Part shown: positions 12,859 through 41,794 of the stretch, piece after piece
Layout of the letters: the number at the start of each line of letters is the position of its first letter
How positions within the stretch are numbered: the stretch's first letter is position 1
Source of the DNA: Uranotaenia lowii
Lineage: Eukaryota > Arthropoda > Insecta > Diptera > Culicidae
Direction of reading: 5' to 3'
DNA: 64,000 bases
Assembly: GCF_029784155.1 (NCBI RefSeq)
Contig: NC_073691.1
Coordinates: 89,039,361 to 89,103,360 of the forward strand
Notes under the pieces: generated by a model
Databases searched by the model: none
Seen by the model: the letters and a program-made list of their open reading frames with translations, nothing else
Told to the model about the DNA's origin: nothing
Position numbers and translations under genes: made by a program

Positions 12859-15643
12859 GACACAACTGTTGTGACCTTTGCCACATCGTTAATCTGCCTA
12901 CAGGAACCATACAAACTTCACGCTCTGGTAGGGCAGTTAACGGACGATGAACCAAAAAGTGTCCAGGTGTAAGAACCGTAAAATCGTTGGGATCACTACT
13001 TTGAGGTGTTAGAGGTCTTGAGTTCAGTACCGCCTCAATTTGTACTAACGCCGTTGTCATCTCGTCAACATTCAATGTTCGCAAACCAAACGTTTTCTTC
13101 AGGTGGGCTTTAAACGATTTCACCTGAGCTTCCCATAAACCTCCGAAGTTAGGTGATCTTGGAGGTATAAACTTAAACTCCACTCCATTATCTGATGCGT
13201 CCTTGATCACTGCGTTTTGAAAATCCTTCGAGCACATCAAATGTTGTATTTCTCTCAACTCATTTTTTGCTCCAACAAACGTAGTCGCATTATCGCACAT
13301 GATCAAGTCTGGTTTCGAGCGACGACCAACGAATCTTCGCAAAGTGGCAATAAACGCCTGAGTCGTTAGGTCCATAACCAACTCTAAGTGGACAGCCTTT
13401 ACCGCCAAACACACGAAAATCGCTACATAGCACTTAACAGGAGCTGCTCTTCGATTAGGGTAACTAATTTGAAACGGACCACAATAATCCACCCCTACTC
13501 GTTTAAAAACTGCTGCCTGTGTGACTCGAACTGACGGTAAATCTGACATAAGCTGTTCAGAAACTCTTGGCTTGTTCCGAAAACATGGTATACATTCATG
13601 AATCACCTTCCTGGCTAAGGAGTTCACATTTGTCAGCCAAAACCTTTGTCTTACTGACGAAATAAGCAACTGTTGTCCTGCATGAAACTGACGCAAATGA
13701 TAATCACGCACTATCGACAGTGCAAACGGATGACGATGGTCAAGAATCCAAGGATGTTTCTGTAGTTCTGACAGGCAGGCATTTGCCAACCGGCCCCCAA
13801 CTCGGATTGCACCATCTTGCAAAAACGGACTAAGTTTAGCAATCCTCGACGATTTATGAACTTGGCCATTCTTGTTCAACTCCTTGAACTCCGACTCAAA
13901 CGAATCTCGCTGCGATAGGCATACCAAAACCAAACAAGCATTTGCCAACTCATCAGACGTCAGGGGTCCAACTTTCCGAAAGTCACGATTCTTTTTTTGA
14001 CAATTGAATCGACAGCGCTGAAACCATGCTACGATACGTGTCAAACCAGTGAACGATTCTTTCAGGCCAAAAATTTCATTGGGAGTCATAACTTGCGAAA
14101 CTAGTGATGTTGTTGGCCGTTCTTCTACAACAGACGGATCGAATGCAACGTCTTTTTCAACAGTTGGAAGAGGCCAATTCTGTTGAGCAAGCGACAACCA
14201 ATGTGGACCATTAAACCAAATTTTCTCGTAACACAGCTGAGCTGGTGACATTCCGCGGGAAATTACGTCTGCAGGGTTCTCTATTCCAGCTACATGGTTC
14301 CAAACACCATTTCGAGTTATGTGCTGAATTTCCGAAACTCGATTCGCCACAAAAATTTGCCAACGAGACGGATGTGAAGCCAACCAATGCTTCACAATCA
14401 TCGAATCCGTCCAGAAGAATGCTTCCGAAATTTCCGGGAAAACTTTAGAGAACTTCTCGTACAGATGAGAAACTTGCAATGCTGAGGACAGCTCCAAACG
14501 AGGAATAGATGTTTTGCGTTTCTGACGCTTGAGATTCTCCAAAGGAGCTACGCGCGATTTGGCGGTTATCAATCTGACAAAAATCTGGCCATCTGCTGTT
14601 ACGCATCGCAAATACAAACAAGTTCCATAAGCTGCCTCCGATGCATCGCAAAATCCGTGCACTTGTACGGAAACACAATCTTTGGCAAACCCAATCCAAC
14701 GCGGAACTGTCAAAGATTCTAACGCCATCAAACTTTGCTTGTAATCTTTCCAAATTTCTTGAAACTCGTTGCTCAGCGGTTCATCCCAGTCAACCTTCAA
14801 ACGCCACAACTGTTGGATGATCAATTTAGCTTGTACCACAACAGGGCCCACGAGTCCAAGCGGGTCAAACAAACAGGCAGCGTCCGAATGTATCGATCTT
14901 TTAGTGATCACAGAGCCTGACGACCTCCATTGAGGAAAACTAAATAAAAACTTGTCAGACTCCGTGTCCCATTTCAAACCAAGTGTTTTGACGGTAGAGT
15001 CCGACTTATCGAACTCGAAAACCGATCGTTTGTCTTTTGATTCGTCCGGAATGCTTGCCAAAACCTCTTCTGAGTTCGAATTAAACTTTCTCAGATTAAA
15101 CCCAGCTGAACTAGTCAGAGTCGTTGTTTCTTTGATCAAAAGTTTCACCTCTTGTACACTGTCAGCCCCAGTTAAACAATCATCAACATTAAAATCCTCT
15201 TTGATGACTCTCGAACCAATCGGGAAACTGTCCAAACCGTCTTCTCCAAGTTGCTTCAAACATCTAGTCGCCAAATATGGAGCACTTGCAGTTCCGTAGG
15301 TTACAGTAGTCAATTCAAAGGTTTTAAGAGGATTTTCAGGTTCATCTCGCCACAAAATCCGCTGAAGTTTTTGATCCGGTTGTTGAACTTCCACCATCCT
15401 GTACATCTTCTCGATGTCCGCACAAACAGCATATCTATGCAAACGGAAGCGCAAGATGATTGACAACAAATCATTCTGCACAGTGGGACCCACCATCAAC
15501 GCGTCGTTCAACGAAACGCCGCTAGAGGTGCGACACGAGGCATCAAACACTACTCGTAGTTTTGTTGTTGTACTTTCCGGTTTCAAAACTGCAACTGGTG
15601 TGGGAGATAATAAACTGGATTTGACTCTGAAACATTTTGACAA
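12854..15643 (-). pseudogene. pol: BEL/Pao pol: RT, peptidase A17, RNase H, integrase (3' truncated)
   Basis: About 926 codons encode the replication enzymes of a BEL/Pao element. Visible features are an RT core with Val-Asp-Asp in Phe-Asn-Val-Asp-Asp near residue 150, and a peptidase A17-type region at about 230-320. An RNase H-like Asp-Ala-Ser lies near 335 and a His2-Cys2 integrase zinc segment at about 660-715. The integrase D,D,E triad is placed at Val-Asp-Tyr-Cys-Gly-Pro near 721, Cys-Asp-Asn-Ala near 783 and Gly-Leu-Trp-Glu near 838, followed by the start of a DUF5641-type tail. The last few codons are foreign because the inversion joint lies at 12859-12866. The apparent Met start at 15643 is not real: near 15597-15600 the frame is off by 2 nt from the upstream pol frame, so this copy also carries a frameshift. 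Confidence 0.92.
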
Positions 15644-15948
15644 TTATTTTCAAACAAACTATCTGTAGAAACCGATTCCAAACATTCTTTCATATGACCC
15701 ATGGTCAAATATTCATGAATAAACTCCTGATACAGTATTGTTCCGATTTTGTCAGCTCCCGATTTTGTCTACCCCCGATTTTGTCTATCCCCGATTTTGT
15801 CAGCATTTCATCCCGATTTTGTCAGCCTTTAAATTTAGTTGAAATTTTCTGCTTTTGAACTAAAATTCCCAGTCATTTAACACTGTATGTTTTTTTTGGG
15901 TTGTCCTGACCCACGTAGAGGACCACCCATTAACCACTTGGTAATTTA

Positions 15949-16112
15949 GGGACCATTCAAACATTACGTAACGCTTTCAGGGGGAGAGGGGGTATAGCAG
16001 TTTGTTAGGCTTTGTGGATTTTGCTTAGAAATTTTGAGACGATTGTGTTACGTAGGGGAAAAGGGGGATGAAAATGCTCGAAAATTGTGTTACGTCATAT
16101 TTGAACGGCCCC
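15949..16112. mobile_element. Palindromic MITE A (TTA duplication)
   Basis: The 164-bp element has ends gggaccattcaaacattacg and the inverse of ggggccgttcaaatatgacg, flanked by TTA at 15946-15948 and 16113-16115. Internal G-runs (gggggagaggggg) are typical of this palindromic insect MITE type. TTA suggests a PIF/Harbinger relation. Confidence 0.65.
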
Positions 16113-16235
16113 TTAAGGGTTGGTATTTTAAGGGTTAGGGGTGATTGAAGGTTCATAAGAGTTTTCATTGATGACGAATGGAAGGAGGTTGAAACTTGAC
16201 CACATTTTGATCACATGGTTTATGGATAGCCCTTA

Positions 16236-16397
16236 GGGATCATCCATAAACCACGTAGACTTCAGGGGGAGAGGGGGTTGGCCAAAGTCTACGATCCATA
16301 CAAATTTTCGATTTTTTTATGCACAAAAGTATACGAGGGGGAGGGGGGGGGGTCTGAAATGACCAAAAATAAGTCTACGTGGTTTATGGATAGTCCC
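16236..16397. mobile_element. Palindromic MITE B (TTA duplication)
   Basis: The 162-bp element has ends gggatcatccataaaccacg and the inverse of gggactatccataaaccacg, flanked by TTA at 16233-16235 and 16398-16400. Its flanks (about 16213-16232 and 16401-16425) are themselves ends of related copies, so several members are stacked. Confidence 0.68.
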
Positions 16398-17003
16398 TTA
16401 GGAAACTATCCACAAACCACGTGGATTTGTCGTTTTTCATAAAACTTTTTTTTTCTTTTTTAATTCAGAAAAATAAAGGACGGTTCAAAATAAAACATTT
16501 ATTTTTGTAAATCCATAAATAAGTACCATTACATACTTAAAATTAAAACGTGATCAACAAATTCAGCTGTTTTGCAATTGCATATCAATCCTGCAGCTAC
16601 GCACCAACCGTTTTTCAAATGGCATGTACACAATCCATTGTATGAAAGGTGTTTGTAAACAATCACTTAGGATTGAGTTCTTGAACAGGTCCTCCATTTT
16701 GCTATTTGCAAGACCTTTCATTTGACGCCTCAAGACCTCACACATACAGACATGTTCCGATCTCGACGAACTGAGTCGAATGGTATATGACACTTGGCCC
16801 TCCGGGCCTCGGATCGAAAGTTGTATTCCCTTCTTTGTAAGAATTTGTAAAAATAAAGAAAAGGGGTCAATATCACCCCTTATCATGGTATCGACATAAA
16901 ATATCCAAATAACAAGTAAACGGACAATCATCAAATCAAAATTGAAATTCTTTTCTAGAAAAAATGTTTTCCCGATTTTGTCAGGTACCCTGTTTTGTCA
17001 GCC

Positions 17004-19394
17004 CTAAATTCCTGATGGGGCTGACAAAATCGGAACAATACTGTATATTCTTTTCAATTCAGCATTAGCCGAAAGTCGCTTTTCGAGAGCAAAAAATCGT
17101 CTAACAGCAACACTTCTCGACTCTCCAAGCCTTTGTAAAACCTTGTGTTTTTTCGGAAGGGTTACCACAAATCTACCCTCTGAATTCCGAACTGTTGTTT
17201 GCTTGAACGTCGATTCGCATGCTGACTCTTCAAGCGACATAGCGCTGTTCATGTGGCATGATTCAAGTTCCCAGAATCTTGAAATCATTTCTTCCAAATT
17301 AACGGTCGAGCTAACAAAACAATCTGTTCGCTCCAAAAACGTTGACCTTTCAAACAAACTTGCTGGAGTTTTTCCAGAAACAACCCAGCCCAACACGGTT
17401 TCCTGAAGCGTAGGACCATCTTCCGAAAGCTTCATTTTTCCAGATCGTAGCAGATCAAAAAAGTATTCTGCTCCAATAATCATGTCGATGTGATCTGGAC
17501 TCCAAAACTCAGGATCAGCCAAAACCATATTTGACGGGATCCTGCAACGCTGCAGTGACACTTGTTTCACAGGCAGCGCACTGGTGATTTTTGGCAAAAC
17601 GTGAAATTTCATATCTTCACAAAACGAAGAAATTTTGGGTAAACGTGGAAGAATTCTTGCTTCAACAGATCTTTTTGAAGTAACAGACACGTTTCCAATT
17701 CCCTGAACTTTCAAAACGTCAGGAATCGCTCTGAACTTCAACTTTCTCACAAAATCTTTGGTCATATAACAAAATTCTGAGCAAGAATCTAGCAACGTAC
17801 GTGCAAACATGTGATTTCCAAAACTATCTTCTACTCGTATTACGGCAGTAGACATCAAAACATTCATTGAAAGCGATTCAGTACTGTTAGGTGCATGTAT
17901 TGCATTAAACGTGTGAGAGTTTTCTGTTGTTGATTGTGGTTGAGAGTGTTGAGTATGTGTCTGCATAATTGGGTAGGAGTTGGTTACATTTTGTTGTGCA
18001 AACGAGTTCGAAATTGAACCTTGACCTTGTTGATTTGATCTAACAAACATCTGATTTTGATTTTGCCCCGAAGGAACTAAACGATTGCTTTGACTAGGTT
18101 GATTATTGACTGTCGACTGGTTTTGTGAAACGGAGCCTTGACTAAACAAATTGTTGTGCAACATGGAATGATGATTTTTGTAGCACTCTCTGCAGGAACC
18201 TTTAGTACACTGATCTGCAAAATGTCCAGATCCAAAACAGTTGATGCAGAGCCGCTTCATTTTCACCACCTTAAACCGCTGAGGGATCGACATCATCTTC
18301 AATTTGTTACACGCTGTTGCCGGGTGATACGGTTTTCCACAAAACACACAATTATTTTGAAACCTCGAAGTTGTATGCACAGTAGTGCGCTGACGACGAG
18401 CTTCGTTGTCTTCCGACCTGTTAGGCACAATTGATTGCAACACCAATGCCTGATCTCGCAAAAAGTCCATGACAACCTTGTACGATGGAACTTCCTTCGA
18501 GTTATGGTGGCTCTCCCATTGTCGAAGGGTGACGGAATCCAAACGCGAACAAACCATGTACGCCAAAATCGTCGACCACCTATCCGTATCCTCACCAATT
18601 TTTCCCAACATCTGAACGTTTTTGTCAAAATCGCTGATCAAATGATTCAACGATTCACCATTTTCTCTCCTCAAGGGTTCGATAGCAAACAGGGCATCCA
18701 GATATGCCTTAACGATTAACTTCTTATTTTCGTATCTTTTTTCCAAAATGTCGCAAGCTACGTGGTAATTGTCTGATGATATTTGGATCGAGCTGATTTC
18801 TTGCAAAGCTTCTCCACTTAAAGCTGAGCGTAGATACGTAAACTTATCCACATCAGAAAGCTGTTCGTTATTGTGGATTAAACTGGTAAACATGTCCCGA
18901 AATGGAATCCAATCTCGCAATTTTCCACTAAAGTTTGGTAGCTTGATGTCCGGAAGCTTCACACGAGACATTGTTTCAGACCTTTCTGCAGAGCTAGACG
19001 AGCACAATGATTCCGATTTTTTGGGACGCAACGCTATGAGGGAAGCCTTGACACTACAATATTGCGCCTCAACCTCCAGCGTTTCCTCATCAAACTTCGC
19101 TTCCCGTTCGGCCGCAAGCATCTTTAAACGCCGCTTCTTGTCTGCTTCGGGTTCCTTGACATCAGCTTTAGAGTCTTCCAGATCTGCGTCATCCAACAAA
19201 ACTTCCAATTTTTGTCTGACCACGTAATACTTTTTCATGGCAGACTCCAGAAGACCCAAACGAACATCAATTTGGTTCTCGTGTTGATCAGCATTGTAGT
19301 CTCGAACGAACTTAGAAACTCCTTTGATGGATGCTTTCAGTTGACGCTCTTGTTTTTTCAGCAAACCCAAATCCTCCATTTTCGAACAAAACAA
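17004..19394 (-). pseudogene. gag: BEL/Pao gag and protease part, interrupted downstream
   Basis: The frame of 796 codons begins with a short coiled-coil-like, charged N-terminus. A DUF1759-type capsid region follows (about residues 145-320, entered through Pro-Asn-Phe-Ser-Gly). Next come zinc knuckles of the CX2CX4HX4C type near 350 and 383, with a further Cys/His cluster near 395. A long Gln/Asn/Ser-rich linker leads to a retroviral-type aspartic protease. At its active site near residue 535 the string reads Asp-Ser-Cys where Asp-Ser/Thr-Gly is usual, which may weaken activity. The last 12 residues and the stop come from the TA-flanked insert. In an uninterrupted element the frame would continue into pol. 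The start at 19394 gives the longest frame; Met-6 is an alternative. Confidence 0.9.
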
Positions 19395-20251
19395 ACCAAA
19401 AAACGCTGATCTTAAACCAAAAACTTCGTATCAGTATCACTCAAACTTAAAATCAGTTCACTAGAAACTTTTCAAAAATATCAGACACGTAACTGCAACT
19501 CACACTTCAAACTTTGTTTCAAACCGGCACAACTAGATAATCAGACCAAAACTGCTCAATGTTTCACAACGCGATTAAAATACGACCGAATACCAGTCAA
19601 TTGACAGAAACTATCCAAAATAATCAACGAAAGCAAAAAACTGATTAAAAATCAGTAAACCAAACGAAAATCAGAAACCAATGCAAAAGTCGGTACACAA
19701 AACCGAATTCAAACTGAAATAATAATCAGTAAACTATGTAAATCAAATCCAAACTGATTAAAAAAAATCAATTTACAAAAGAAAATCAATTAAGGTCAGG
19801 CACAATAATAGCTCAACTACCCTAATAAGCTCAAACTTTCTTATTTCGTTCAACCACAATCTTATTTATAATGGTGGTAAACAACCACAAACATGCACTG
19901 TACTTATCTGTTTTCCAATCCAGATGCCGTTCCGAACGATGTTGACCAAAAACTCCGATCGAAATCTTGAAATTATTCCAATTTCAAAACTTTTGTTCCG
20001 TATCCAAACGGCAAAATTACGTTGGGATCCACTGGACGGCGATCGTACCGTAAACCAAAACACAATGGTGCTGTTGCTTCTTTTCAGCAACTCCAAGCGA
20101 CCACTTTCAATAGGAACCTTTGTTCCACCACACAGCGTCCAAAATGCCGAACTTCACAGCGTCCAAAATGTCGACGCAAACCCAAAAACCAATCACTAAC
20201 CACCAGCACAAAATTTCCGAACAGTCCAATAGAGAAAAACCACTAATTCGA
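19395..20251 (-). other. BEL leader region between PBS and gag
   Basis: About 860 bp of A/C-rich untranslated leader in element orientation. On plus, about 22 bp with core 'cacagcgtccaaaatg' is repeated in tandem near 20134-20172. Antisense frames of up to 102 codons here show no protein-like content. Confidence 0.6.
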
Positions 20252-20269
20252 TTCGGTTCGAATGGACCA
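20252..20269 (-). promoter_or_regulatory. BEL primer-binding site
   Basis: Three bases inside the 5' LTR end, the minus strand reads TGGTCCATTCGAACCGAA. TGG complements the CCA of a tRNA, and TTCGAAC fits a T-loop. The primer tRNA was not identified. Confidence 0.65.
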
Positions 20270-20272
20270 AAA

Positions 20273-20624
20273 TGTTCTCGATCAACCCTCAAATTAAACC
20301 TTGTGGACTGTAAAACACTAATCACTTGGAGGGGATCGGTCACACTTCACTTCGATAGCACTTATTCTCCTTTCCGACCGTGGGGGAAGGTTTTATTTTG
20401 CCCGGACTTGGGGTTTCGGATTGGTTAAAAACGCGTCGACACTGCTGTTGGTTGGTAGGTAAACTAAACTGTATTCAATTATGTTCTTTGTTTACGTCTC
20501 TCCCAAACACAGCATAAAGAGAGACGGTGAATTGGTGAGCGGTGAGTTCGTGAGTGACTCCGCTCATGATTTGACATTTCACTAGGGGTGCGCAAAAAAT
20601 TAAACTTATTATCATTATCAAACA
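20273..20624 (-). repeat. BEL 5' LTR (352 bp)
   Basis: It starts TGTTTGATAATG and ends GATCGAGAACA in element orientation, with TG...CA borders. Its mate is 42394-42745; I found no difference on reading them side by side. The outer flank is ggctc, matching the base run after the 3' LTR. An AATAAA-type string (caaaataaaacc) lies in its second half. Confidence 0.93.
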
Positions 20625-21157
20625 GAGCCTTCGAAAGAAAAATAAATGATTGATTTAAAAAAAACTTATTTTGAGAAAATATATTTTTAATTTGATGTGT
20701 TCGGCCATTTGCCATATATTTATCTAAAATTTATATTTTTTTCAATCGTAAAAGTATTTAAATAAAAATTCTTAAAATCTGAAAAATTACCAAACTATGA
20801 AGAATCGTTTTATATCAATAAATCAAGAACGATATAAGAAAGTCCTAAAATAAGATTTTATTTAAAAAAAATCAAAAATTTAAATGTAATTTTTAAATTT
20901 AAATTGTCTAATCAGTTTCGGTATCTTTAATTCAGAAAAAATATGGGCTTTGGAGATGCATTCTGTAAAAATCGGGGCTTGCAATAAACCAAGGAATGGA
21001 AATGTAGTATTAGATGTAGGCAACAAAAATCGAATCAGTTTAGGTGGACATCTGGGGAAGGGGGGTAGGGGTTGCCAAATATCCACACTTGTGCACGGAG
21101 AGGGAGAAGGGGATAAAATCTCATTTTTTGTCCACGTGGTATCTGAACGGTCCCAAA

Positions 21158-22924
21158 CATGGCCGTAGGAACGGGGGGGGGGGGGGTTTTGGGGGTTAAA
21201 CCCCCCCCATGAGGATCCAAAACAGCAAGCGAGGTATTCCACTCAACACTCAAAATTTTAAATTCAGAACATAGTTATGATAATAAAGCAATGTTAATCA
21301 AGAATAACAAACTAGATTCAAAACTAATGCAAAAATCTCAAAAATCCATCCCAAGTCCAAAATTTTGAAACACTTTTTCAGAATTTCCTCGCTTGTTCAT
21401 CGAAATTCTGGTCTGGATATAAAATTTTGAATATAGTTAAACTCATTTCGGAGGTTCTGATTCCAAAATTTCAAAATTCTATTTTTGTATTTCGGATTCT
21501 GTAACCACTTCAGCATTCTTGATTTCAGTTCGAAAAATCATAAAAAATTAGAAATGAAAAGCTGCTTTGAAATCCATGAAATCCATCCATCAAATTTAAA
21601 TACTGTTTTTTGAGATCATATGAATTTTCTATATTTTGATAATAATTTCCTCGGTATCGATTTTCGACTGTTAATAAGTTTTTTGAGAGTAAATTTTTCG
21701 GCTATCAGTCAACTTAAATAGCAAAGACGACTATTTATTTAAGATCCACATCGGATCGAAACGTTGGATCTTAAATAAATAGTCGTCTTTGCTATTTAAG
21801 CTGAATGAGGGCTCTAAAACTTAGCTCATAAAATTCTGATCTGAAATAAAATTCGGAAATTACATTGTTTTTGTACATTGCAGAAATCGTATGGAAATTC
21901 GGAGACAGATTCAAGGCACAATTTTTGAATTCTGGTTCAGAATTTAGATTCAGAATGCAGATTCAAAATTCAGGAAAAGGTTCAATTTGTAATACGGAAT
22001 AGTGTAAATAAATACGAAACATCTCGCTTTTCGCTTGCCAACAGTGTGCCACACTTCGTAGTATAACCCGAATGAACTGAATTTGAGTGTTTAACTTCAT
22101 TTAACAAAACTGGACTCAACATTTATCCTAACTTAAAAATGCTAAATTTGTAAAATTTAGTCCAGAGGTTTCTGAGATATAGAATGCCAAATTTCGGTGT
22201 TTCGGTGTTTCTCTTCATAGATTTCTTTGCGGTCATTAATGAGTTCAGATTGTGTGTCAATTCAATTTGCAGATTTCAATTTCTTAAACAAAATTTGCTT
22301 GTAAACACAATTCAATTTAAAATCACAAATATAGGGGAGAATTTGATTTCTTTGTTTTATCAGAAAAACCCGATTTTTTTTGAATCATCCACAGGATTTT
22401 CATTATGGAATTGATTCTTTATGATAAATATTTGCTGTTAAAAAACATCTTCATCCAAAAAATCTGCACAAAATTTCATATTTTCCAGTGTATTATTTAA
22501 CATTATTAAGTTCACCAAAACTCAAGCATTTAATTTCAGAAATCAATAAACCAAATTCTGCTCATTTAATTTAGATAAGAGAGAGAGATAAAGTATATTG
22601 ATTTGAGTATTTGATATTTTAAAAGCAAAGAAAAAAGGTCCTGAAAAAAGGTTATTTTATGCCCAAATCGACTAAGTTTGATCTACTAGGCTCTTAAACA
22701 AATTCAAAGATTTTAACCATCAATGAAAGCGAATTTTGCTCACTTTTTAGTACTTGAGTACTTAAAAAGTACTTAAGTACTAAAAGGTTAAATACAAAGT
22801 ACTTAAAAATAAATAATCACAAAGTTAAAAACATAATTTGTTTTTTTTGTATTCGTGAATAGTGGGGCAAAAAATCATAGGTCCCCAAAACCCCCCCCAT
22901 GAGTCGGTTCTTCCTACGGCCCTG
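21158..22924. mobile_element. Second hAT-like element nested in the first
   Basis: The ends are CATGGCCGTAGGAA and the inverse of CAGGGCCGTAGGAA, followed in both cases by G-rich stretches and TTTTGGGG. A perfect 8-bp duplication, gtcccaaa, flanks it (21150-21157 and 22925-22932). The 1,767-bp interior is AT-rich, with no transposase and no frame worth calling. It contains the 36-bp stem-loop at 21713-21800 and a near-perfect AGTACT palindrome at 22748-22782. Confidence 0.82.
21713..21800. repeat. Perfect 36-bp inverted repeat with 16-nt loop
   Basis: Arms 21713-21748 and 21765-21800 are exact reverse complements (arm start cttaaatagcaaagacgact). The loop is 21749-21764. The arms are longer and more perfect than a typical pre-miRNA stem, and the repeat is too internal to be an element's TIR. 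Confidence 0.9.
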
Positions 22925-24027: not shown

Positions 24028-24330
24028 CACAGAGCTTGCAAGCCGTAAATCTTACAGTTGTATGCTCTTATTAGGCCTTCTTGGGAGAATCAAATCTGCA
24101 GTGCCTGTTGGCATTTTAAAATCTTTTATACGGCCAACAGGCACTCAAATGCTGTTGAAAGGTTTGAATGCGGCTTATAACAGGGCTTAATGCTTTGCTG
24201 GGTTGTTTACATTGACTTCGCATTGTCGCTCGCCCGACTTTCTAGAGAACTGCAGGCAGCAGCATTCGGCTTTGAATTTTCCCAACTAGAATCCTATCAT
24301 GAGCGTTTCTTCTGAGTGATTTTCGGAATA
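24028..24330. other. Unassigned sequence with a short hairpin
   Basis: It follows the hAT target duplication. A 13-bp perfect stem (agtgcctgttggc / inverse) with a 20-nt loop lies at 24100-24145. No gene is supported. Confidence 0.5.
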
Positions 24331-24555
24331 CTGGTTGATCGGCGGAGCTCGATTGCTCGTGTTTGCCAATTTCATCATGTTCACCGTGGTGAAATTGGCT
24401 AACGCGTCGATGTACTGAAGCGGAGATTGCAGGTTCAAGTCCTGTCGGTTATCCGTTGTATCTTTTTTAAAAATTCATAGTATTCAAAGCTAATGTTCTT
24501 TTGTTCTTTGATAAATCATGTTTCTCTAATTCTTTCCATCACCTACGAAAATGTG
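24331..24555 (+). repeat. tRNA-like dispersed repeat, copy 1
   Basis: It shares about 200 bp of alternating similarity with 27755-27985: 'ttcaccgtggtg', 'gtactgaagcggagattgc', a B-box-like ggttcaagtcctg (24432-24444), 'ccgttgtatcttttt', then diverged tails. The block folds partly like a tRNA (T-arm and a 5-bp anticodon stem), but the acceptor arm has mismatches. A tRNA-derived SINE head is the best guess. Confidence 0.5.
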
Positions 24556-24921
24556 CAATTAAAAATAAAAAAAAAGTCATTGAAAATAAAATAATAGTTA
24601 CTATTAGAGAAATTTTGAAAAATCTTTGATTTTTAAGCCACAAGCTGAGGAACAAGGAATTATGTTCAAAATTACGTTTTTCTCCATTGGTTGCAGAAAT
24701 CAGTATTTTTTGATGAATTAAATAATTTTAGACAATTTCTGAAAGCATTGATAATATATAAAAAATATAATAAAAAATAATGCGAAAAACAAATAAATCG
24801 GAATAAATTGCACGAAAGCTTGTATGCAACAAAATTGCAAAATATATAATTACACAAAATCTATAAACCAAGTAATTTTTTATCGAAAAAATCAATTAAA
24901 TCAAGAATATCAAAGGTGAAA
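24556..24921. other. AT-rich noncoding DNA
   Basis: Very A-rich, with no gene or structured element recognised. Confidence 0.5.
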
Positions 24922-24923
24922 TA

Positions 24924-25911
24924 GGGGAGATAAGGGCATAATGGTCACCTTAAGGAAAACGCTTGTTTAATCATAGAAAATAGCTATAATATGTGTTTCG
25001 TGTTCAAACATAAAAAAAGTCTATTTCCTAATTGACGGAAACTTGAAAAACTAGATCAAAACGTTTAAAAAGGCATTTTAAGTAATTTTGCCAAAAGTTG
25101 AAAACCAGTCACTGTAAGGCCATAATGAGACCCATGGGGCAGTATAAGCATCATTCATCGGGGCACGATGAGCGTTTTCTGCCGGAGAATCTAGCAGTGA
25201 ATTCAACTCAATGAAGTTAGGTGAGTCGTAGATTCATCAAACAAAGCAATAACAAAATAATCTAGGTCGGTTTGTAGAATAGAAACAATTCACATACGCT
25301 GGTACATTATGTTTCTGATGCTTTGTTTGGCGGATGATGCTACTAGCCGTATAATGTAACAATCAAAAAAATCGATCATGAATGGTAAATGGAAAAAAAA
25401 TACCTCGAACATAAATCGAGCTCTAGTCTTTTGATTACCTCTCCGACACCTTACCAATAGGCCACATCGTCAGATGTAAACTAGTCAAGCTGTAGTTCTA
25501 TAATTCAGTTGAATATATCGAGTTGATTTCGCTGCTAGATCGCTGCGCTCATCGTGCCCCGGTTTATAGTGCTCTGTTCGCCCCAAGCCAACAAAGCTTA
25601 GTAAAAACGTGTTTTATAATTGATTGTAGTGAAAAATCAAAAATTAAATTATGGTGAAAATTAAGAAACAATGTGTACATCATGTTGCAGTGCGTACATT
25701 ATAGATCAAGATGATTTAAAGAGCTTAATTCGTGGTACTCAAAAACTTTAATATTTTCGTCACTTGAGAACCTAGCTGGGTTTTTTTTAAATATCTCTGT
25801 AAAGATGATAAGGAATTTCAATTTTTTGTGAAAAATTAATACTATAGGAAGTACGAAACAAATTCTCATGTGCTTATTATGCACCGGGTGCTCGTTATGC
25901 TCTTATCCCCC
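24924..25911 (+). mobile_element. TA-flanked TIR element, family copy 1 (988 bp)
   Basis: The left tip is GGGGAGATAAGGGCATAATG and the right tip reads 'gttatgctcttatcccc' inward, with TA on both sides (24922-24923 and 25912-25913). It is clearly related along its length to 35688-36729 and lies in the same orientation, sharing blocks such as 'gcagtgcgtacattatagatcaag'. No transposase frame is visible. Confidence 0.78.
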
Positions 25912-27754: not shown

Positions 27755-27985
27755 TTGACTGATGGAGCTCGACTTGTACATTCGTGTCGGCCGATCCCAT
27801 CACGTTCACCGTGGTGTAATTGGCAAACGCGCCGTTGTACTGAAGCGGAGATTGCGGGTTCATGTCCTGCCCGTGAGCCGTTGTATCTTTTTCGAGAAAT
27901 TTATGATATTTACGGCTTATGTTCTTCCTTTTCTTCGACTCTCATGTTTCTTTAAAATTTTCAATCATCTTGAAAATGTCAGAAA
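27755..27985 (+). repeat. tRNA-like dispersed repeat, copy 2
   Basis: This is the partner of the repeat at 24331-24555. It has a better-preserved tRNA-like core: the anticodon stem ccgtt/agcgg closes around a 7-nt loop, and the T-stem gcggg/cctgc closes around ttcatgt. One acceptor pair is broken and the implied anticodon would be unusual, so a working tRNA is unlikely. Confidence 0.5.
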
Positions 27986-31702: not shown

Positions 31703-31704
31703 TA

Positions 31705-32418
31705 CACTCAGAGGAAATCTTATTATAAATTTCATAAGATACATCTTATGAACCGCTTTTTTGCGTCCAAACTAATTTTTCATAAGAGTCTTATGAAATT
31801 CTTTCAATTTTCATACGATGTTCTTATGAAAAATAGAAGAAACGGCATTGTGAAAAAATGATGAACACATTCATTAATAGCATCAGTTTTTTTTTTCATC
31901 ATCTAACAGTACGAAGCAATCGCCAGTTCATAGCTATTATAGTTTTCCTTCAATGTTAAATGTTATTGTTATCTCCGGAATGGTAAGTTCGATTTGATGT
32001 TTTTGGTGTGAACGTTGAATATATTAGTAAACCAAAATACATTATTTGTTTACTTTTCAGCAAGCTGATCGGCAAAAAACGAAAGGTCGAAGATAAAGAT
32101 GCGGCAAAAAAAACTTTGATGGAGCCGTCTGTTGATGCGTTGCTGATGGTGACCATGAAGGATTTAATTTTAAACAAATTTGGCAAACAATAAAGTGAAT
32201 GTTTTCAGCATGAAATATCGAGAATTTTTCTTATTAGAAAGTGATTTACTGTTTCCATAAGAATCTCTTATGAAAAGCAACAACCTCTCATTGAAGTAGG
32301 CGTTCATCTTCAGAATTCATTCGCGTCATAAGACAATCTTATGAATTTCATTAATTTTTCTTATGGCGCCACTTCATAAGAGAATCTTATGGCGTACATA
32401 ATAGTATTTTTCTGAGTG
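31705..32418. mobile_element. 714-bp TIR element with TA duplication and an internal mini-ORF
   Basis: The tips are CACTCAGAGGAAAT and the inverse of CACTCAGAAAAATA, each next to TA (31703-31704 and 32419-32420). Subterminal regions repeat 'cataagatt/cttatgaaa' motifs in both orientations, forming a dense cluster that could be transposase-binding sites. The centre contains a possible two-exon ORF. The superfamily is not certain. Confidence 0.65.
31960..32193 (+). CDS. Possible spliced 51-residue protein inside the TIR element
   Basis: Exon 1 is 31960-31982 (23 nt from an ATG) and is followed by the consensus donor gtaagt. The intron ends in a pyrimidine-rich tract plus cag at 32060. Exon 2 runs 32061-32193 to TAA. 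Joined, the frame is exactly 52 codons. Exon 2 begins with a very basic stretch (Gly-Lys-Lys-Arg-Lys-Val-Glu), like a monopartite nuclear localisation signal, and continues as a short amphipathic tail. No family is recognised. It could be the remnant of the autonomous element's protein or a captured host exon; the splice signals are the main support. Confidence 0.35.
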
Positions 32419-32420
32419 TA

Positions 32421-33956
32421 TATTTGCAACCATACGACTTTTTTTTCATATTGTTATTTTCAACAGAAAAAATAGCCATGACAATTTCGTTTGTCGAAAT
32501 ATCAGTGATCATAGGGACTGTGATATTTTCATTTCAACAACTATCATTGACCGAAACAACACGTGGGTAGGGAGTGCGACAAAGCTACTAAGATATTTTA
32601 GAAAAAAATCCACTTTGCATTTTCTCTCGAATAATCGCAGCTCTTGCGTGATTTCTGGAAATTTTCTTCCAGAGCTGCACCAAACGATTTTCAGCTTTAA
32701 AAATTTTGAATATATTTTCATTGCGAAGAGAATAATTTTTTTCTAATCTGTGCATGCCGAATTTTTTGATTGTTTGTACTTTAATAAAGAAGTTAATTTT
32801 TTTCGATCTGCATCTGAGGCAATTATGTTGGAAATCACCGTATGAAAATCAGATGAACTCACCTTTCTAGGGCAACTGTTAAATTCACATGCGATTTCAA
32901 ACGCGGACATTCATTTGAAAAATTTGCAATAAATACTCATGCTTACAGTTAAACTCGGCAAAAATAAAAAAATACCAGAAAGACTAAAGAGTGAATATTT
33001 ATTAAGGTTTTGAATAAAAATTTAAAACTAATTTAATTGTTCCTTTTCTTGGCATGCAACTTCAATCGAAATACACCACCAGTGTTGGAAGCTGGAAAAA
33101 ATACATGTTCATTAAAGAGGTATTTTTGGGCTGATGTTTTCCCTAAAACTTCATTTAAAACTACGCACAAATGTTTTCATACTTTTTGGGTTGTATGATA
33201 AAACCGTTGCTATCAAATTAAGCTTCGAAATAAGTTTGAGAACATAAGTTATTCGACTAACTAAAAGTCATATCCGAGCATTGAAAATGCAAAAATCGAT
33301 TTTTGGGAACCATGAACCAAAGGTACATTGGTATGCGTGCGAACAGCATTTGCACTGCAGTCTGCCGAGCAAATGCCACGTGGTCTCCTACAGAACACAG
33401 TGGTTCGAAATATTAAAAAAACTAAATTAAGTTAAGCATCTCACAAGACTTAAGATGTTTTTCTTATCTAAAAATTGTTGGATCAGTGGCAATTTATGAC
33501 TTTAGTATATGAAATACATAATTAATTGAGTTTAGGAATCGTTTTCTATTGCTTAGGAACCATATGTCGTAATGTACAATTATTCTGAAATGAATATCAA
33601 GTAAACTCTTTAATTGTTGGCAGCAGTGAAAACTGCTGAACCAAACAAGACAAATTTCTTCTCCACCATATACCTACTCAGATTTAATTTTTGGATTTTT
33701 GTTCTAATTTTTTTCATGAAAACAGAAGTTGGAAGTTCACTAAATTATAGTTTGCTTTCCAATTATTCCTAAAAATATTCGATGTGAGTCGAATTAAAAA
33801 AAAATGTTTTAGCAAGATTTACATTTTTACATCTATTTGGCGTATCAAACCACTGCGCAACGCCCCGGGCATTCGAGATGGCTCTTGCTAGAAGCTCATA
33901 ATCTCAGCTAACGAATTCAAAAGGGCAAAGTTTTAAAATACCATTAAAGGAATTTT
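32421..33956. other. AT-rich noncoding DNA
   Basis: No supported gene. The longest frame (70 codons, minus, 32509-32721) has no family signal. Confidence 0.45.
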
Positions 33957-34564
33957 TCAATTTCTTACTTTGTGAAGCCAAACTCCACAATATGAAGACA
34001 GTTGTTTGGTAGTGAAAATAACCCTATGTGTCGCAATCGCATTGCGGAATTTCTGGACTTCCGACTTTTTTAAATGAAAGCTTATTTTGTGCTTCCCCTT
34101 CAACCAAATTTCATCAATGTTTTCAAAAGCTTTTTTGTTGTATGAGTGGCGCCCGGTGTTCCATCGTCGCATAGAACTTTACGCTCAGCTGACGTCATTC
34201 TGTCAGTGGCCTTATATTCAGAATAGCCAACGATTCTGTTAACTGTCAATTGAGCATTGTTGGTAAAGATCTATTGCACTTTGCTGGTGGCCAAGAATCG
34301 GATCATCGAAACGGCAAACAATTGGTACGGCGGCCAAGTAATTGGAGCACCGCAGTGAGTGCTTTGCATGCATTTTACTCACATTTATTAAAGTTCCATA
34401 GAGAAAACATATTTTTGTTGAACTCTAAGCAAGTTAGCAAGTTAATTCTTCAATGGATGTTATATGGTGCACTCAACAGGAAGGTAGGAATGTCGAAAAA
34501 AAGGGTAAACCATGCCTTAGGTGCCAAAATGAGATTCGGATTTAGAAAAAAGCTATGCCAATGA
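33957..34564. other. Two small divergent open frames sharing a 77-bp spacer
   Basis: A minus-strand frame of 71 codons (33957-34172) is Lys/His-rich. A plus-strand frame of 104 codons (34250-34564) includes a 'gcagtgagt' donor-like site near 34353. The spacer contains tgacgtcat, the palindromic CRE core, near 34191. Neither protein is recognised, so these may be chance. Confidence 0.2.
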
Positions 34565-35685
34565 ACGCAATTTTATTAAAACTAAAAATAAAATTTCAAA
34601 AGTGTAAAAAATGTGTAAAACAGAAATTTTGAATAAAAAGCTCAATGCGTAACCACATTTAGCAAGTCTTAATTTTGATTAAAAAAATAGTAGTAAGAAC
34701 TTATTTTTTGTTGATAGAAAAAAGGCAATCAAATGTTTTCTTAGATTAAGTGAGTGTTGCGTAAGCATAGTTTTACCGGTTATACCGAAACCGAAAACCT
34801 GTATCCCAGCAATAGTTTTCTAATACCGAATACAGGTTTTAGGTCCTTCCAAAACCAGTTTTTTTGGTATTGATAAATAGCAAGGTTATAAACTAAACTA
34901 ATAATAATTGTTTATGAGTTTTACATTCGTAGAACAAAGATCCAAAATCTATTTTCTTTTAGTCTTATTTTTATACGTAGTAACTGTTTTCAATCTTAAT
35001 TTGTTCGAATACATGTTTTTTTAATTAAGTTCAAAATGATGTAGATGATTCATTCCACCTGATATGCAATTGCCCCTCGTTTGCTCAATTACGTTTTCGT
35101 ATTTTAGGACAACACGTTTTAAGTGAATCCAATTTTAAAAAATTAAACCTTAAGGACATACTTTCTTTCCTCATACTTTGTGGAAAAGAGCTATAAAGCT
35201 TCGAGAATTTGAATCCCCTTCATGGGATCTAGGTTTTCTCAGGTGAATGATGAAATCTATATATAAAAAAGGTCAGGCACAATTTTCCCGTATATTTGGA
35301 TAACGTGTCGCTATTGAGCCAACCCTCTTCCGATACCTGATACCTGATTGGTGAGGAAAACTTATGCAGTTTTTTTTTTCCGAGAAAATAGAGCTTCTAA
35401 TGTGAAATTTCGTACAGGTGATAAAAAAATTAATTAGTGTTAATATTTTTCAAAACAGTCGATCATATAGAACTGACAAGCCTTGCAAAAAATGTCTGTC
35501 CGAAAAGATTTTAATGAGCGTTTTTGTGAAACCACCATCTTAAAAAAAATTAGAATTTTCTGTATATTAAAGGTGTCAATTTCATGATATCTCGCACGTA
35601 CGTGAAAAGCCACGACATTTAGGTGAAAACTTGATGAACGGATGTAAAAACCATCGAGTAGCCTAACTCGCCTAAAATTCACACG
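34565..35685. other. AT-rich noncoding DNA
   Basis: No supported gene. A 90-codon minus frame (35440-35712) runs into the tip of the next MITE and is not called. Confidence 0.45.
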
Positions 35686-35687
35686 TA

Positions 35688-36729
35688 GGGGAGATGGGGG
35701 CATAATGGCCACCTTAAGGAAAACGGTTATTTAACCATAGAAAATAGCTATAATATGTAGGTTACATTATTGTTTCGTGTTCAGACACTTGAAAAGCCTA
35801 TTCCCTAACGGGCTGAAACGTGAAAAACTAGATTAAAACGTTAAAAATGCATTTTAAAAAATTTTGCCAAAAGCTGAAAACCAGCCACTGTGGAGGCATA
35901 ATGAGAACCCCCCCTGAGGCAGTATGAGCACCATTAATCAGAGCAAGATGTGCGTTTTTGCCGGGGAATCTAGCAGCGAATTCAATTCGATGAAGTCAGG
36001 TGAGTCGTAGATTCATCAAACAAAGCAATAACAAAATAATCTAGATCTGTTGGTAGTATACAAACAATTCACGCACGCTCATACATTAAGTGCTTTGTTC
36101 GGAGGATGATGCTACTAGCCGTATAATGTAACAATAAAAAAATCGATCATGAAATGTGAATGGAAAAAAATCACCTCGAACAGAAATCTAACTCTAGTCT
36201 TTTGATTACCTCTCCGACACCTTACCAATAGGCTAAATTGTCGGATGAAAACTAGTCAAGGTGTGGCGCTTTAATTAATTTTAATTCGCTGCTAGATTCT
36301 ACGGCAGAAAATGCTCATTATGCCTCGATAATATGGTGCTCTATATGCCCCTAGTCAACAAATTTAAGTAAAAACGTGTTTTAAAATTGATAAAAGTGAA
36401 AAATCAAAAAATTTTTGATGTTAAAAATTGAGAAACAATGTGTACATCATGTTGCAGTGCGTACATTATAGATCAAGGTTATTTTAAGATCATAAGAGCT
36501 TATTTCGTGGTGCTCAAAAATTATAATATTTTCGTAACTTGAGAACCAAGCTAGTTTTTTTTAAATATCTCTGTAAAGATGATAAGGAGATTCCTTTTTT
36601 TGTGAAAAATTAATACTATAGGAAGTACGAAACAAATCCTAATGAAAATTTATTTAAGAAAATACGCACTTTCGTAGAAAAGCGTAGTTCTCATTATGCC
36701 TCGGGTGCTCGTTATGCCCTCATCTCCCC
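35688..36729 (+). mobile_element. TA-flanked TIR element, family copy 2 (1,042 bp)
   Basis: The left tip is GGGGAGATGGGGGCATAATG and the right tip reads 'gttatgccctcatctcccc', with TA on each side (35686-35687 and 36730-36731). It is the same family and orientation as 24924-25911. It is longer mainly because of a stretch near 36640-36690 that is absent from copy 1. Confidence 0.78.
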
Positions 36730-37029
36730 TATGAGAGGTGCTATCAAATAAAAATTATCTGCAACGACATAAAGACACAAAGGAAAAAAGAAACCAACCA
36801 ACCCGTAAAAGATGCAACAAAAAATTGAACTACCGAAACAAAAGATAGATAAATCAATAAAAAAGAACACTAAATAGCTATTTTTGTTTTGCTTTACCTT
36901 TAAATTTTGATTACACTTGTTTATTTGACAAGTTTTATACATGAATTGAATTGAGTTTTTATAAAACAACCAATTTTCTTATTACTGCTAATTATTTTCA
37001 TTATTTGGTGTTGGATTGAGATTTTCTAT

Positions 37030-37460
37030 AAATCATATTGGACAAGTCTTGGGGTATATATGAACAGCGTTCGGGGTAATTATTAACAGGTTATGGGGTA
37101 ATTATGAACATATTTTTTTAAGTTAAAAATCACCATACACTGCTTACTATGGGTAAATGTAAGGTATAAATACTGTTACTTTTCAAAAATTTTATACCAA
37201 GTTCGTAAACCGTGTTCATAACTACCCCCTAGGGAGGGGGGTAAATTTGAACAGACGGGGTAATTATGAACAGACGTCTCAAGGACGTGAGTTGCAACCA
37301 AAAAAAAAGTTGCTCTACAGAATGATGAAGAGCACGGAAACATTCATTATTGGCAGGTTTTCAGAATTTATGATAAGAAATAAGCATATGGTGGCTGTGA
37401 GTGTGCCAAATGAAGAAATATTGTTCATAATTACCGCACCTAGCCCTACATAATTCTTCA
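37030..37460. repeat. Cluster of 'ggggtaattatgaacag' MITE ends
   Basis: The motif 'ggtaattatgaacag' or its inverse 'gttcataattacc' occurs at least five times, once with 'gttcataactaccccctagg'. These look like stacked or internally repeated TIRs of a small MITE. Precise borders were not resolved. Confidence 0.45.
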
Positions 37461-40400
37461 TGAAAAATATTTTCGAATTGTCAATTGAAAATTGAATGAT
37501 TTACAAAAAAAAATCGAAATCTAGCTATTGGTCGGGAAACGAAGCTTAGGTAATGATGAGCTAGTTGGCGCCAGGATCTCTGGGAGATGAAAGGTGCTGT
37601 TCGGTAGGATGTAAACAAAACCACGTGTTTTATTATGAATTTTGGAGTGCAGTTTTCCACGAATACAGACCGATTACCGAAATGATATATCGATCTTCTT
37701 CTTTGCTTAGTCCTAAATTATCTTAAGGATGCATAATAATTATAACCTTCGATCGGTTTTGAGTAAAAACGTGCCCTGAAAATCGAATCGATTCACTAAA
37801 TTTGTCGCCAAAAGCAGCAGAAAAATTTGGTTGAAACTAACACAGTTCAAAATTATGTCAAAAGTTTCAAAATTTTCCATTTTTTCATTGAGAAATGTTA
37901 ACAAATCACTTGTTTTTATGTGTAGATAATCTTGGAAAAAAATATTTTCTGCACTTTTTTCCCGAATCAAATAACAGAATGAATTTATTTTCACTGTGAA
38001 TATTGTGATGTTTTTGAGTCGTTTTGATCCAATGTTTTGGAGCATTATTTGCCTACACTGGGGCGTTTAACATCCAATGATTTCAAAGGTTGCTTTTAAA
38101 GGCGTTTTATTGTTTTTACAATAAAAAGTTTTGACAGAATATGAGTAGAAGATAGAAATACGAAGCACATGATACAATGTATTCGGGTGTTCAGCTTATG
38201 TATTCCGCATACTCGGTAATTTCCCTTAGCAGGTGCATATTCCCCCGAAATACCCTATCAGCTTATCAGTGTTACAAGCTTGGAATGTGTAACCCCATGA
38301 ATAATGTGTTAAGCTAGAAGGTGGAATTGATTCTCCCTCCGAATATTCCTCATATTTTACTTTTTGAATTAGCAAGCTTGCCGACCATAGGTTTTGTGTA
38401 GGGAATCTCTGAAACGCTTGCGATTTCCAATTGAGTATAGGCTACACCGATTTTCCAAAAATAAATACTTCAAATTACACACCTTTTGAAATTTCTTATT
38501 CACACTGGTTGGTGTTTTTAATGTCGAATTCTCTCACCTATAGAGGTTGCTCCCTTATCCAGGTTCTGGTAATGAGAACAGGAATCAAAATTAACGGTAG
38601 CACGAAACCACATAAAACATCCGAGAGGTTGGTTAGGTGGAACGGAGGCAGGGCATTGACAAACATAACCTCTGACAACATCGTCAACACATCACCATCG
38701 TCATCATCATCAAAAGCGCGAAAACCCACGCGACACAGTGACAGCAGAATGAATATTTCCCTGTATGTACCGACAGTCTGGTGGCATGTTGTTCTCAAAC
38801 ACTTCCCCGGAAACATCCACCCTCTACGTGCCTCCATTGCTCATCAACATATTCCTACTTGAAGCACTTAATTTGTCGCGTCGTCGTCGTTGTCGTCGTC
38901 TCATTTATAAACCACCGGGGCACGTGGATTAAGAGCCTGCTTAACACTCCAATTAGGAGATAAATTTTAAAGCCACACTCGGTAGCTCGGAGTGGCTCGG
39001 TTTCGATGGTCGGGTTTTTGGCTTTTGACGGTTTTGTTGTGCGGAGAATGAACTCATGTTGCAAGTTGATCATCACTCTAGCTGGATTGAAGTTATGATA
39101 GACACGACTTGATATTTTTTAAAAGAGAATTCAAATCTAATTTCTTGAATTGAGAAGGTTATTTGGTTTAGTTTTTTTTTTAAACAGTCTCCTTAATTGA
39201 TATTGAAACATAAATTAAGGCACTTGTACCTAGTATTACCAAAAAAAAAAAAAATTCTCGCAGTGAACGCAACGCATCCGCAGTTGACTGATTTCTGATA
39301 TAAAATAGTTAATTCACTAACAGCTAATAAATTTATTTTTTCGCTCAATTCATGTTCGGTGAGCTACATAAGCATATTTAAAATCCCTCAACATTATGGA
39401 AAACAACGAGTAACACAGATTACTGGAAAACTATTTCGTACAGTATTAGAGGAAAACCGTTTTGTTAACAGGAAACAAATTTAGAAAAAACAAAAAATTA
39501 CTCGCGTTTACGGATTCTAGCTCACAAAATCGCGACGGAAACTGTTCGGTCTTGGTTGGCAGCTCGGAAAAACTTGGCGATGAAAAGGGAAACGTCAAAA
39601 GAAAACATCACATTTTTTACACAAAGTATGTTAAGGGGTAGGAATAAAAAGAAATAAATCCCAGCATAGAGTTGAGCCATGGAAAAACCGACGAAAAGAG
39701 AAGGAAATTGGAACATAGTTTAAGGACACTCTCATTCAGTGACGTATTGTATGGGATACCTATCATGCTTGTCCAACACCTCGCAAACAGATCAGAGCAG
39801 AGAACGAATAACACTTTTATCATTTCGGTTTCCGAGTGCACTGCTCAGCCGATCAACGTTCACTTATCTTTTTGCCGAGTGCGCCCGATTGCGGTTGCTC
39901 TGACGGTCGGGTGGACGTCGCTCGCTCTAAAGAAAAGAGAAGGAGCTGGCTAGAAAATTGTGCTCTAGCGACGCTGCTGCGTAGCTCAGTGTATCCAGCT
40001 GGAAAGATTTCAATGCAGGAATATTTTCTTCAAAAAAAAAAGCTGTTATGCAGTGCGGAACAGTGCATCAGTTAAAGAGGTCCAATGTAGATTTATGTAT
40101 GAACTATTTTTGTACGTAGCCGGGCCGGGCACTTCCTGGAAAATTATTTGAAAAACATGGTGAAAACCGGGTAAATAATCTGAAATTCTCCATTCCATAA
40201 ACCGAGCAATATCCGGACAAATCTGAGGAAATTCCAGACATTCATCTAGTGAAGGAAAACGACTTACATTTTTTTTGTTGCAACACATCAGCAGTGTCAA
40301 ATTTATGTTTAAAGCATACGAAGGAAAGTTTTGGTTTGATTTTTGATGAAATAAACTTTCACAAACCCAATTTTTGACAAACAATTTTAAACTGAATTTG

Positions 40401-41493
40401 ATTTTCTTGTTTCATTTTCCAAATAATGTGGATAAAACTGGGCAAAATCCAAGTAGTTTTTTCACAATATTCGGGCATCCGCAAATTGCTGTATACTTAG
40501 GTTTATGTACTTTTAATATCGTACGTGGGAAGCATTAATTTACAAAAGCAGCAATTCACAAAGTAACATTTACTAAAATTATCCAAAAATCTTTGTCTTT
40601 TAAACAAACCGTGAACATTACGCAGGGATCTGGGACAAATTTTAATAATAAAACTTCAAAACTTTCACAAATCGTAAAATTTAGGATTTATCTTTCTTAA
40701 CCGCTACGCTTTTGATATTTTTCGACCGAAGAAAGCTTTCGTAGCTAATCATTTGTCCTGGTGCAGAACATCAATCTAGAGGAACTCGCTCAGGAATGAA
40801 AAGATAGGTGTTTTGGGCAAAGTTGTTAATTCGCATATTTTGATATAAAATTTAAAGGCGAGAGATTTAAAAATAGCGCGATAATAACAATAACTTTTTG
40901 TAGAGCATTTTTCAAGTATTTTTTTTAATTCAACCGTATCTCCTTGGGTTAAGATTGTAGAACTTTGATATGTTAAGCAAAGTTGTGTATTTTGTTGAGA
41001 TAAATAACTTTGTAGAAAAAACTAAAGCTCTAAAAGGCTAAACAAGATAGTTATGATTTATATCTCGCTATTGGTGGACTTCTAAACTTTGTATTTCATA
41101 TCAAAATATGCGCTTTATTTTACAGAGCAATGTTGTCGAAAACACCAGCATTCTATCTTAACTACCTTTGGCGTTATTCATTTAGTTCCGTTAGATTTAT
41201 ATTCTGCATTGTGAATTCTGACACACTTCCAAACATCGATCCAGACGCAACCGATGAAGACAAACCGAGTTTTCTGTAAAGCTTCTCTTTCGCCCGAGTG
41301 CGAACGAATTAATCTGCACCGAGAACGCACTTCATCAGTTTGCTTGCATCTCTTGCCCACACTTGGGTGGACGCTTGGTCGCTCTGGAGGTAACTGAGCA
41401 TTTTTTAAAGATTCTCTGCTTGGGAAGAGCACAGCGAAAAAAATACACGCTCTTACTCTGAACGGGCAAATCTGAGGAGCGATGCCAAGCATG
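37461..41493. other. Unassigned sequence up to the right inversion junction
   Basis: No recognised gene. The stretches 38430-39000 and 39650-40080 are less AT-rich, with CpG-containing blocks and trinucleotide runs (cgtcgtcgt near 38880-38897). They could be unique DNA near a gene. The 143-codon frame at 38431-38862 has no family features. A segment near 41270-41470 resembles, in its CpG and 'cgagtgcg' content, the 39830-39960 stretch. Confidence 0.4.
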
Positions 41494-41794
41494 GTTGTGT
41501 CAACAGTTTTGGAAAAGTTGGAGAGTTCAGTACCTAACCAATCTACAGAATCGCACTCGTTGGATAGTGCAGCGACGGAACATCACTGTTGGTATGATGG
41601 TTCTTCTGAAGGAAGATAATACCCCCCCATTGAGATGGCCTCTGGGTAGAGTTGTTGAAGTTTTCCTGGGCAACGACGGTAATGTTCGTGTAGTAACCGT
41701 ACGTACGAAGGATGGTACCTTCAACAGAGGAATCTCTAAAGTTTGTGTGTTGCCAATTAGAGACAACGAAGATACGTCGGACAAGGCAGATTAA
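41494..41794 (+). pseudogene. pol: BEL/Pao pol C-terminus (DUF5641-type tail)
   Basis: About 98 codons are open from the junction to TAA. The sequence has the DUF5641 character: a Trp-containing start, then basic residues, a Gly-x-Met-Val-Leu-Leu-Lys-Glu segment, Trp-Pro-Leu-Gly-Arg-Val, and Val-Arg-Val-Val-Thr-Val-Arg-Thr. This is the usual end of BEL polyproteins and exactly what the minus-strand pol frame lacks. The internal Met near its start is not a biological start codon. Confidence 0.88.

Follow-up and report, generated by a model that had tools for sequence, protein, structure and literature searches.

A young BEL/Pao retrotransposon split by a 28.6-kb inversion in Uranotaenia lowii, with a DNA transposon as the likely cause

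We examined 64,000 nucleotides of the 1.08-Gb assembly of the mosquito Uranotaenia lowii (C1:89039361-89103360; hereafter the window, whose positions are used below unless a coordinate carries a C prefix) and confirmed that a 28.6-kb piece of chromosome has been inverted, cutting one young BEL/Pao retrotransposon in two. The break at 12859 is termed junction L and the break at 41494 junction R. Sequences resembling the pre-inversion (empty) state of both break sites were found elsewhere in the U. lowii genome, and these matches place the inversion beyond chance. A preliminary description of this DNA had proposed one BEL insertion split by an inversion younger than the insertion, and this reading stands, as both pre-inversion joins persist in paralogs. 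Our results suggest that the likely cause had been overlooked there, namely that the second breakpoint coincides precisely with one end of a 1,730-bp transposon. This exact end, together with an exchange of 8-bp target-site duplications (TSDs), suggests how the inversion arose, and a cut-and-paste DNA transposon very probably made it, whichever route was taken. The inverted segment and the parts of the BEL element, including its long terminal repeats (LTRs), are as follows.

12867-41493, no strand assigned: inverted segment, 28,627 bp, with the two 8-mers described below excluded
12859-15643, minus strand: 5' part of the BEL pol frame (weak reverse transcriptase, Peptidase_A17, Integrase_H2C2), cut at the breakpoint
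17007-19430, minus strand: BEL gag frame (DUF1759), to which U. lowii itself and further mosquitoes have relatives
20273-20624, minus strand: BEL 5' LTR, TG...CA, 352 bp, identical to 42394-42745
20625-20629, minus strand: BEL TSD GGCTC on the 5' side, with one GGCTC in repeats L088-L090
41495-41794, plus strand: C-terminal tail of BEL pol (DUF5641, E 4e-32)
42394-42745, plus strand: BEL 3' LTR, 352 bp, identical to 20273-20624
42746-42750, plus strand: BEL TSD GGCTC on the 3' side, matching the reverse complement of 20625-20629

The two halves of the BEL element lie on opposite strands, with the LTR, gag and most of pol running on the minus strand from 20624 to 12859 and the pol tail and 3' LTR on the plus strand from 41494 to 42745. 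The minus-strand pol frame exits the element at 12859 and meets a stop codon at 12854-12856. The break in pol at 12859-12866 and the integrase claimed in the preliminary description were both recovered (Integrase_H2C2, PF17921, E 3e-8), and the frame also carries Peptidase_A17 (PF05380, E 9e-48), while the reverse transcriptase claimed in that description was found only below the RVT_1 cut-off. Its account of the ends was borne out: the C-terminal part of pol, the 3' UTR side and the 3' LTR had been placed on the plus strand at 41494-42745, where we located the DUF5641 tail and the 3' LTR; the two LTRs, described as identical, agree at 352/352 bases (100%) and keep their TG...CA ends; and the shared 5-bp ggctc of the outer flanks was found at both positions listed above. 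BEL/Pao elements pair a DUF1759 gag with a DUF5641 tail and usually make a 5-bp TSD. Membership in this group was supported by Peptidase_A17 and an integrase zinc-binding domain in pol, by the DUF1759 gag and DUF5641 pol tail (both present in some of the listed relatives), and by TG...CA LTRs with a 5-bp duplication. Autointegration or another aberrant integration of BEL was ruled out as a source of the split, given intact LTR ends, a normal 5-bp duplication and a break inside pol.

We found that the 8-mer GTTGTGTC is present at 12859-12866 (reversed) and at 41494-41501, and nowhere else in the window. The closest other BEL copies among the best 40 scored (L039, L040 and L041) are 99, 94 and 92% identical in the region next to the break, and on each of them the two window pieces, aligned separately, abut with an overlap of exactly 8 bases; in L041 the alignment of the 3' piece falls into two blocks. 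An unbroken BEL element thus has GTTGTGTC once, and the window has it twice. Beyond the 3' LTR, starting at 42751, the sequence belongs to a high-copy repeat (40 scored of 1,460 candidates), and the outer flanks of BEL are joined in all six of the copies fetched from among those scored. The bases directly upstream in these six copies match the outer flank of the 5' LTR, taken inward on the minus strand, with local scores of 123-176, against shuffled maxima of 32-41. Three of the six (L088-L090) read GAAGGCTCGTTTAC, with GGCTC once, and the remaining three vary at a few of these bases. The two outer flanks, today 22 kb apart, were thus once a single repeat.

The second breakpoint lies in a low-copy host repeat, here called F, and adjoins a transposon with terminal inverted repeats (TIRs).

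6530-6996, plus strand: outer portion of the host repeat, separated from the rest by the element at 6997-12144
12145-12855, plus strand: F_L, left half of the host repeat that held the second break
39409-39763, minus strand: F_R, right half of the host repeat, inverted, which adjoins F_L in the paralogs on C2 and C3
39764-41493, minus strand: 1,730-bp non-autonomous DNA transposon of a family with 8-bp TSDs, TIR CATGCTTG...CAAGCATG, its left end being the inversion breakpoint

With 12600-12858 as the query, two paralogous loci were recovered, one on C3 and one on C2, and both run from 12.85 kb straight into the reverse complement of 39762-39409. The inverted F_R searched alone returned the same two loci at 83-84% identity, 12 bases further on, and two further weak matches elsewhere (74% over 112 query bases). 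When the F_L and F_R of the window were joined by script, they aligned near-continuously to the paralog L007 across the site. Over the 1.9 kb that they share, these paralogs are 99.5% alike, and we therefore treat them as a single witness. The first 8 bases of F_R (39756-39763, reversed) are the duplication ATAGGTAT, and the extra piece relative to the empty F site is exactly the transposon. The ancestral joins of both breakpoints and the single target site were all found, in paralogs rather than orthologs.

It was also noted that 6997-12144 is a 5,148-bp hAT-like element with inverted ends CAGGGATTGAAA and an 8-bp duplication GAAATGAG, which is not present in the paralogs L006 and L007. Within it, a 123-bp satellite forms two arrays in opposite orientation, at 8323-10029 and 10582-11832. 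These inverted arrays (8323-11832) were considered as a cause of the inversion and rejected, since the element that contains them is separate and has an 8-bp duplication of its own, and the breakpoint lies 0.7 kb beyond it.

We then characterized the family of the 1,730-bp transposon. Its first 300 bases gave 394 candidates, of which 40 were scored at 97-100% identity; 39 of these 40 copies (window included) match from the first base of the element and one from the third. The search with the other end gave 382 candidates, again with 40 scored. The first query began at the breakpoint and is by itself no proof of an element end; the end is proven because the flanks of the copies differ, yet repeat as 8-mers exactly outside that base. 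Both ends were readable in 44 of the 51 copy stretches fetched (20 + 19 + 12). The other seven (L029, L051, L053, L060, L063, L079 and L082) did not have both ends readable and stayed outside the duplication count; L053 and L079 probably represent a single interrupted copy, one half each. The 8-bp duplications are perfect in 37/44 copies, near or shifted in 6/44 and discordant in 1/44; in a subset of family copies with both ends, perfect duplications number 29/34. Two copies counted as near (L026 and L059) have just 5 bases in common, at a shift. The discordant copy, L081 (C2:260198559-260201559), carries CTTACTGG and TAGTAAGT and is possibly a decayed copy or a second case of exchanged duplications.

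The 8-bp TSDs and the TIRs, which are perfect over 8 bp only, make hAT and P the candidate superfamilies. No frame much above 120 codons was found in the 1,730-bp element. The interrupted copy L029 was considered as an autonomous partner and rejected, as it has three frames of at least 80 aa, the longest of 181 aa, none transposase-like when judged by eye, without a library scan. One copy, L018 (C2:268388442-268391441), has its own duplication, AAGATAAC, and shows 0/1,730 differences from the window copy; it is the only identical copy among the best 40 scored at each end (394 and 382 candidates). The next-nearest copy differs at 24/1,708 sites, in a pairwise comparison of 27 collinear full-length copies from the first 39 fetched. 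Near-identical siblings do exist in the family, as L019 and L031 have 0 differences over 1,724 sites. None of 50 located copies lies within 30 kb of another, and the nearest pair is 643 kb apart; this count covers the 50 best-scoring copies, window included, of the 394 and 382 candidates and is biased accordingly, with the C1337 copy and L079 left out.

The bases at the two junctions are as follows.

12856-12858, plus strand: junction L footprint ATA (ATAG with 12859), what is left of the 8-bp duplication ATAGGTAT
12859-12866, minus strand: GTTGTGTC at junction L, the other copy of the 8-bp TSD made by the transposon in BEL
41494-41501, plus strand: 8-mer GTTGTGTC at junction R, touching the transposon end

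On one side of the window copy of the transposon stands GACACAAC, the reversed BEL 8-mer, and on the other stands ATAGGTAT, from the second breakpoint site; the two agree at only 1/8 positions. Judged from the sequence, such unrelated 8-mers around a single copy are exchanged TSDs. The exchange is full at junction R, where the transposon copy sits. Junction L holds a truncated flank only and reads ...CCT-ATA-GACACAAC, in which the BEL 8-mer is whole and ATAGGTAT is cut to ATA (or ATAG, with the G shared). No transposon end bases were found at junction L, and one internal transposon 11-mer within the 800 bases around it is probably a chance match. With these bases and no transposon, junction L resembles an excision footprint.

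These observations can be arranged into a sequence of events. The BEL element lies in a copy of the common repeat, and the right end of the 1,730-bp transposon is still within the low-copy repeat, whose other half is found on the far side of the inversion; before the flip, the transposon would have sat some 27 kb from the BEL break. A second, oppositely oriented copy may then have entered BEL at GTTGTGTC, with recombination between the two copies, or the transposon may have undergone aberrant transposition (hybrid-element or alternative), in which ends from sister chromatids would have been inserted jointly into BEL. Both routes yield an inversion with one transposon copy per junction and exchanged duplications, according to excerpts of PMC2775673 and, for alternative transposition in maize, PMC8225341 (these and the other papers cited by PMC number are drawn on in excerpt). 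Junction L would thus at first have held a second copy, which would have left by a slightly imprecise excision, with 5 bp of ATAGGTAT lost and a 1-bp overlap at the G.

We lean slightly toward aberrant transposition over recombination, since no chimera is detectable in the remaining copy and copies of the family are sparse. The chimeric element expected from ectopic recombination was not seen, as the window copy equals L018 at all 1,730 sites. Two identical parent copies would conceal a chimera, and given the near-identical siblings in the family, an identical pair formed by a short hop would escape both the chimera and the spacing arguments. A more specific version, in which one aberrant transposition made the inversion and the copy that departed from the reciprocal junction survives as L018, seems quite unlikely; if true, the "hit-and-run" would be recorded in full, with the rearrangement, the copy left at the junction and the copy that moved away all present in the genome.

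Several observations weigh against a transposon-made inversion as set out here. The ancestral joins come from diverged paralogs (F mostly ~76-84%, the BEL repeat 80-90%) and not from orthologous chromosomes. No second transposon copy is present at junction L, where its former presence is read from 3-4 bases of the old flank, and neither a recombination chimera nor the two-copy product of aberrant transposition was seen. Among the 44 relatives, the discordant L081 and the two weak matches indicate that decay can mimic an exchange of duplications. Finally, neither a transposase nor the superfamily was identified for the 1,730-bp family from the frames of the element and of L029.

The missing second copy would be accounted for by a one-step misjoining, in which transposase would have cut the left end of the transposon from F_L and joined it to BEL with an 8-bp duplication, and end joining would have connected the broken F_L with the other BEL end. 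We infer this route and rate it as rather unlikely, and its share is already counted within the high probability given to a transposon cause. It fits each base, including the exact transposon-BEL join, the whole 8-mer on the BEL side and the loss of 5 bp solely on the old-flank side of junction L, and it needs fewer events and a single transposon copy, with no second copy or later excision. However, transposases ordinarily join both ends at the target. The compared cases, in the excerpts of PMC2775673, PMC3355041 and PMC8225341, moreover retain the transposon, or a footprint with remnants of its ends, at both junctions.

Two explanations that leave the transposon without a causal role were also weighed. 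A staggered break in BEL, with its 8-nt overhang filled in, could have been combined with a break beside a bystander transposon through non-homologous end joining or an 8-bp microhomology. Staggered breaks with inverted duplications are a known path to inversions (PMC3355041, in the part consulted), and the 8-mer by itself would be compatible with them, but such ordinary breakage requires, as coincidences, a second break precisely at base 1 of a 1,730-bp element and a BEL overhang equal to the 8-bp duplication of its family, and it does not explain the incomplete left copy of ATAGGTAT; we regard it as very unlikely. Microhomology as the only source of the 8-mer is likewise thought unlikely, because the 8-mer coincides with the element end and with the duplication length of the family. 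An assembly flip, with the chromosome uninverted and the contig mis-joined through repeats, might be invited by the large size of the transposon family (394 and 382 candidates at first look, with 40 scored at each end). Had the contig been flipped through two transposon copies, however, both junctions would contain one, and junction L has none; nor is a mis-join expected to create a base-precise BEL 8-mer at a transposon end or to leave 3-4 bases of an old duplication. The F_L query matches one identical place only in the assembly, so that no alternative contig exists for that side. On these structural grounds an assembly flip appears most unlikely. A single BEL insertion, later split by a younger inversion, is supported and consistent with all findings.

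The interrupted retrotransposon sets an age bound on the inversion, which is younger than the BEL insertion. The inversion may still be polymorphic, as proposed in the preliminary description, and the identity of the LTRs agrees with this. We used a rate of 0.0111 (Drosophila, quoted in PMC3355041), with units assumed to be per site per Myr per lineage. The 0/352 LTR differences give a BEL insertion younger than ~0.38 Myr, and the 0/1,730 differences give a split between the window copy and L018 below ~0.08 Myr; both are 95% upper bounds at a Drosophila rate that may not be that of the mosquito. The locus is thus likely a young micro-inversion generated by a transposon, as is known from Drosophila, and it is unusually well supported for one assembly. 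Exchanged TSDs are strong base-level evidence of a transposon-made inversion. Such evidence can vanish, and one of the two duplication marks is already incomplete here. With a split LTR element and empty sites preserved in paralogs, one assembly is enough to prove an inversion and to polarise it, and a second genome is not needed.

Other repeats were noted in the window. A direct repeat of ~950 bp, 82% identical, occupies 24922-25870 and 35686-36644, both copies lying within the inverted segment. The segments 24357-24467 and 27782-27892 are similar (86%) and each contains a tRNA-Ser-like stretch (ARAGORN); Rfam reports only 27782-27892, barely over its cut-off, and the two are possibly tRNA-derived short interspersed elements. 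A Gypsy-type element occupies 49976-59911. Its 1,879-bp LTRs are identical over their full length, ACTC flanks it on either side, and it contains a long pol frame as well as a frame resembling gag, in which the gag domains scored under their cut-offs.

The natural cases of exchanged duplications in the literature examined, in part, are from Drosophila, and the present case is from a mosquito and looks young. In the titles and abstract openings of the open-licence literature searched, exchanged duplications in a mosquito, or U. lowii by name, were not encountered. In mosquitoes, inversions whose breakpoints carry mobile or repeated DNA are described in the excerpt of PMC1952172, namely Anopheles arabiensis 2Rd' (Odysseus) and An. 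gambiae 2Rj, the latter with an imprecise excision at one breakpoint. They differ in that 2Rj is attributed to 14.6-kb segmental duplications and the evidence for 2Rd' is a transposon fragment at a single breakpoint. In the excerpt on maize Ac/fAc alternative (reversed-ends) transposition (PMC8225341), an 8-bp duplication likewise stands at junctions exactly at the transposon ends and the inversions are also tens of kb long (80.9-81.8 kb), but the element is found at both junctions and the origin is a known two-element allele.

The Drosophila buzzatii inversions 2j, 2q7 and 2z3 (Galileo, P superfamily; PMC2775673, consulted in part) likewise have a cut-and-paste transposon at their breakpoints, and 2z3 shares the exchanged duplications, with single target sites in the standard arrangement. 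In 2z3 two chimeric copies are kept and the duplications are of 7 bp, whereas U. lowii has one copy, no visible chimera and 8 bp. In D. mojavensis 2s (BuT5; excerpt of PMC3355041) one junction holds a complete non-autonomous transposon and the duplications are exchanged, as here; the other junction carries an excision footprint, which junction L resembles. The 2s footprint includes 27 bp of transposon ends, its duplications are of 9 bp and it is a fixed inversion of chromosome 2, whereas in U. lowii no end bases remain, the duplications are of 8 bp, the inversion spans 28.6 kb and a retrotransposon was cut.

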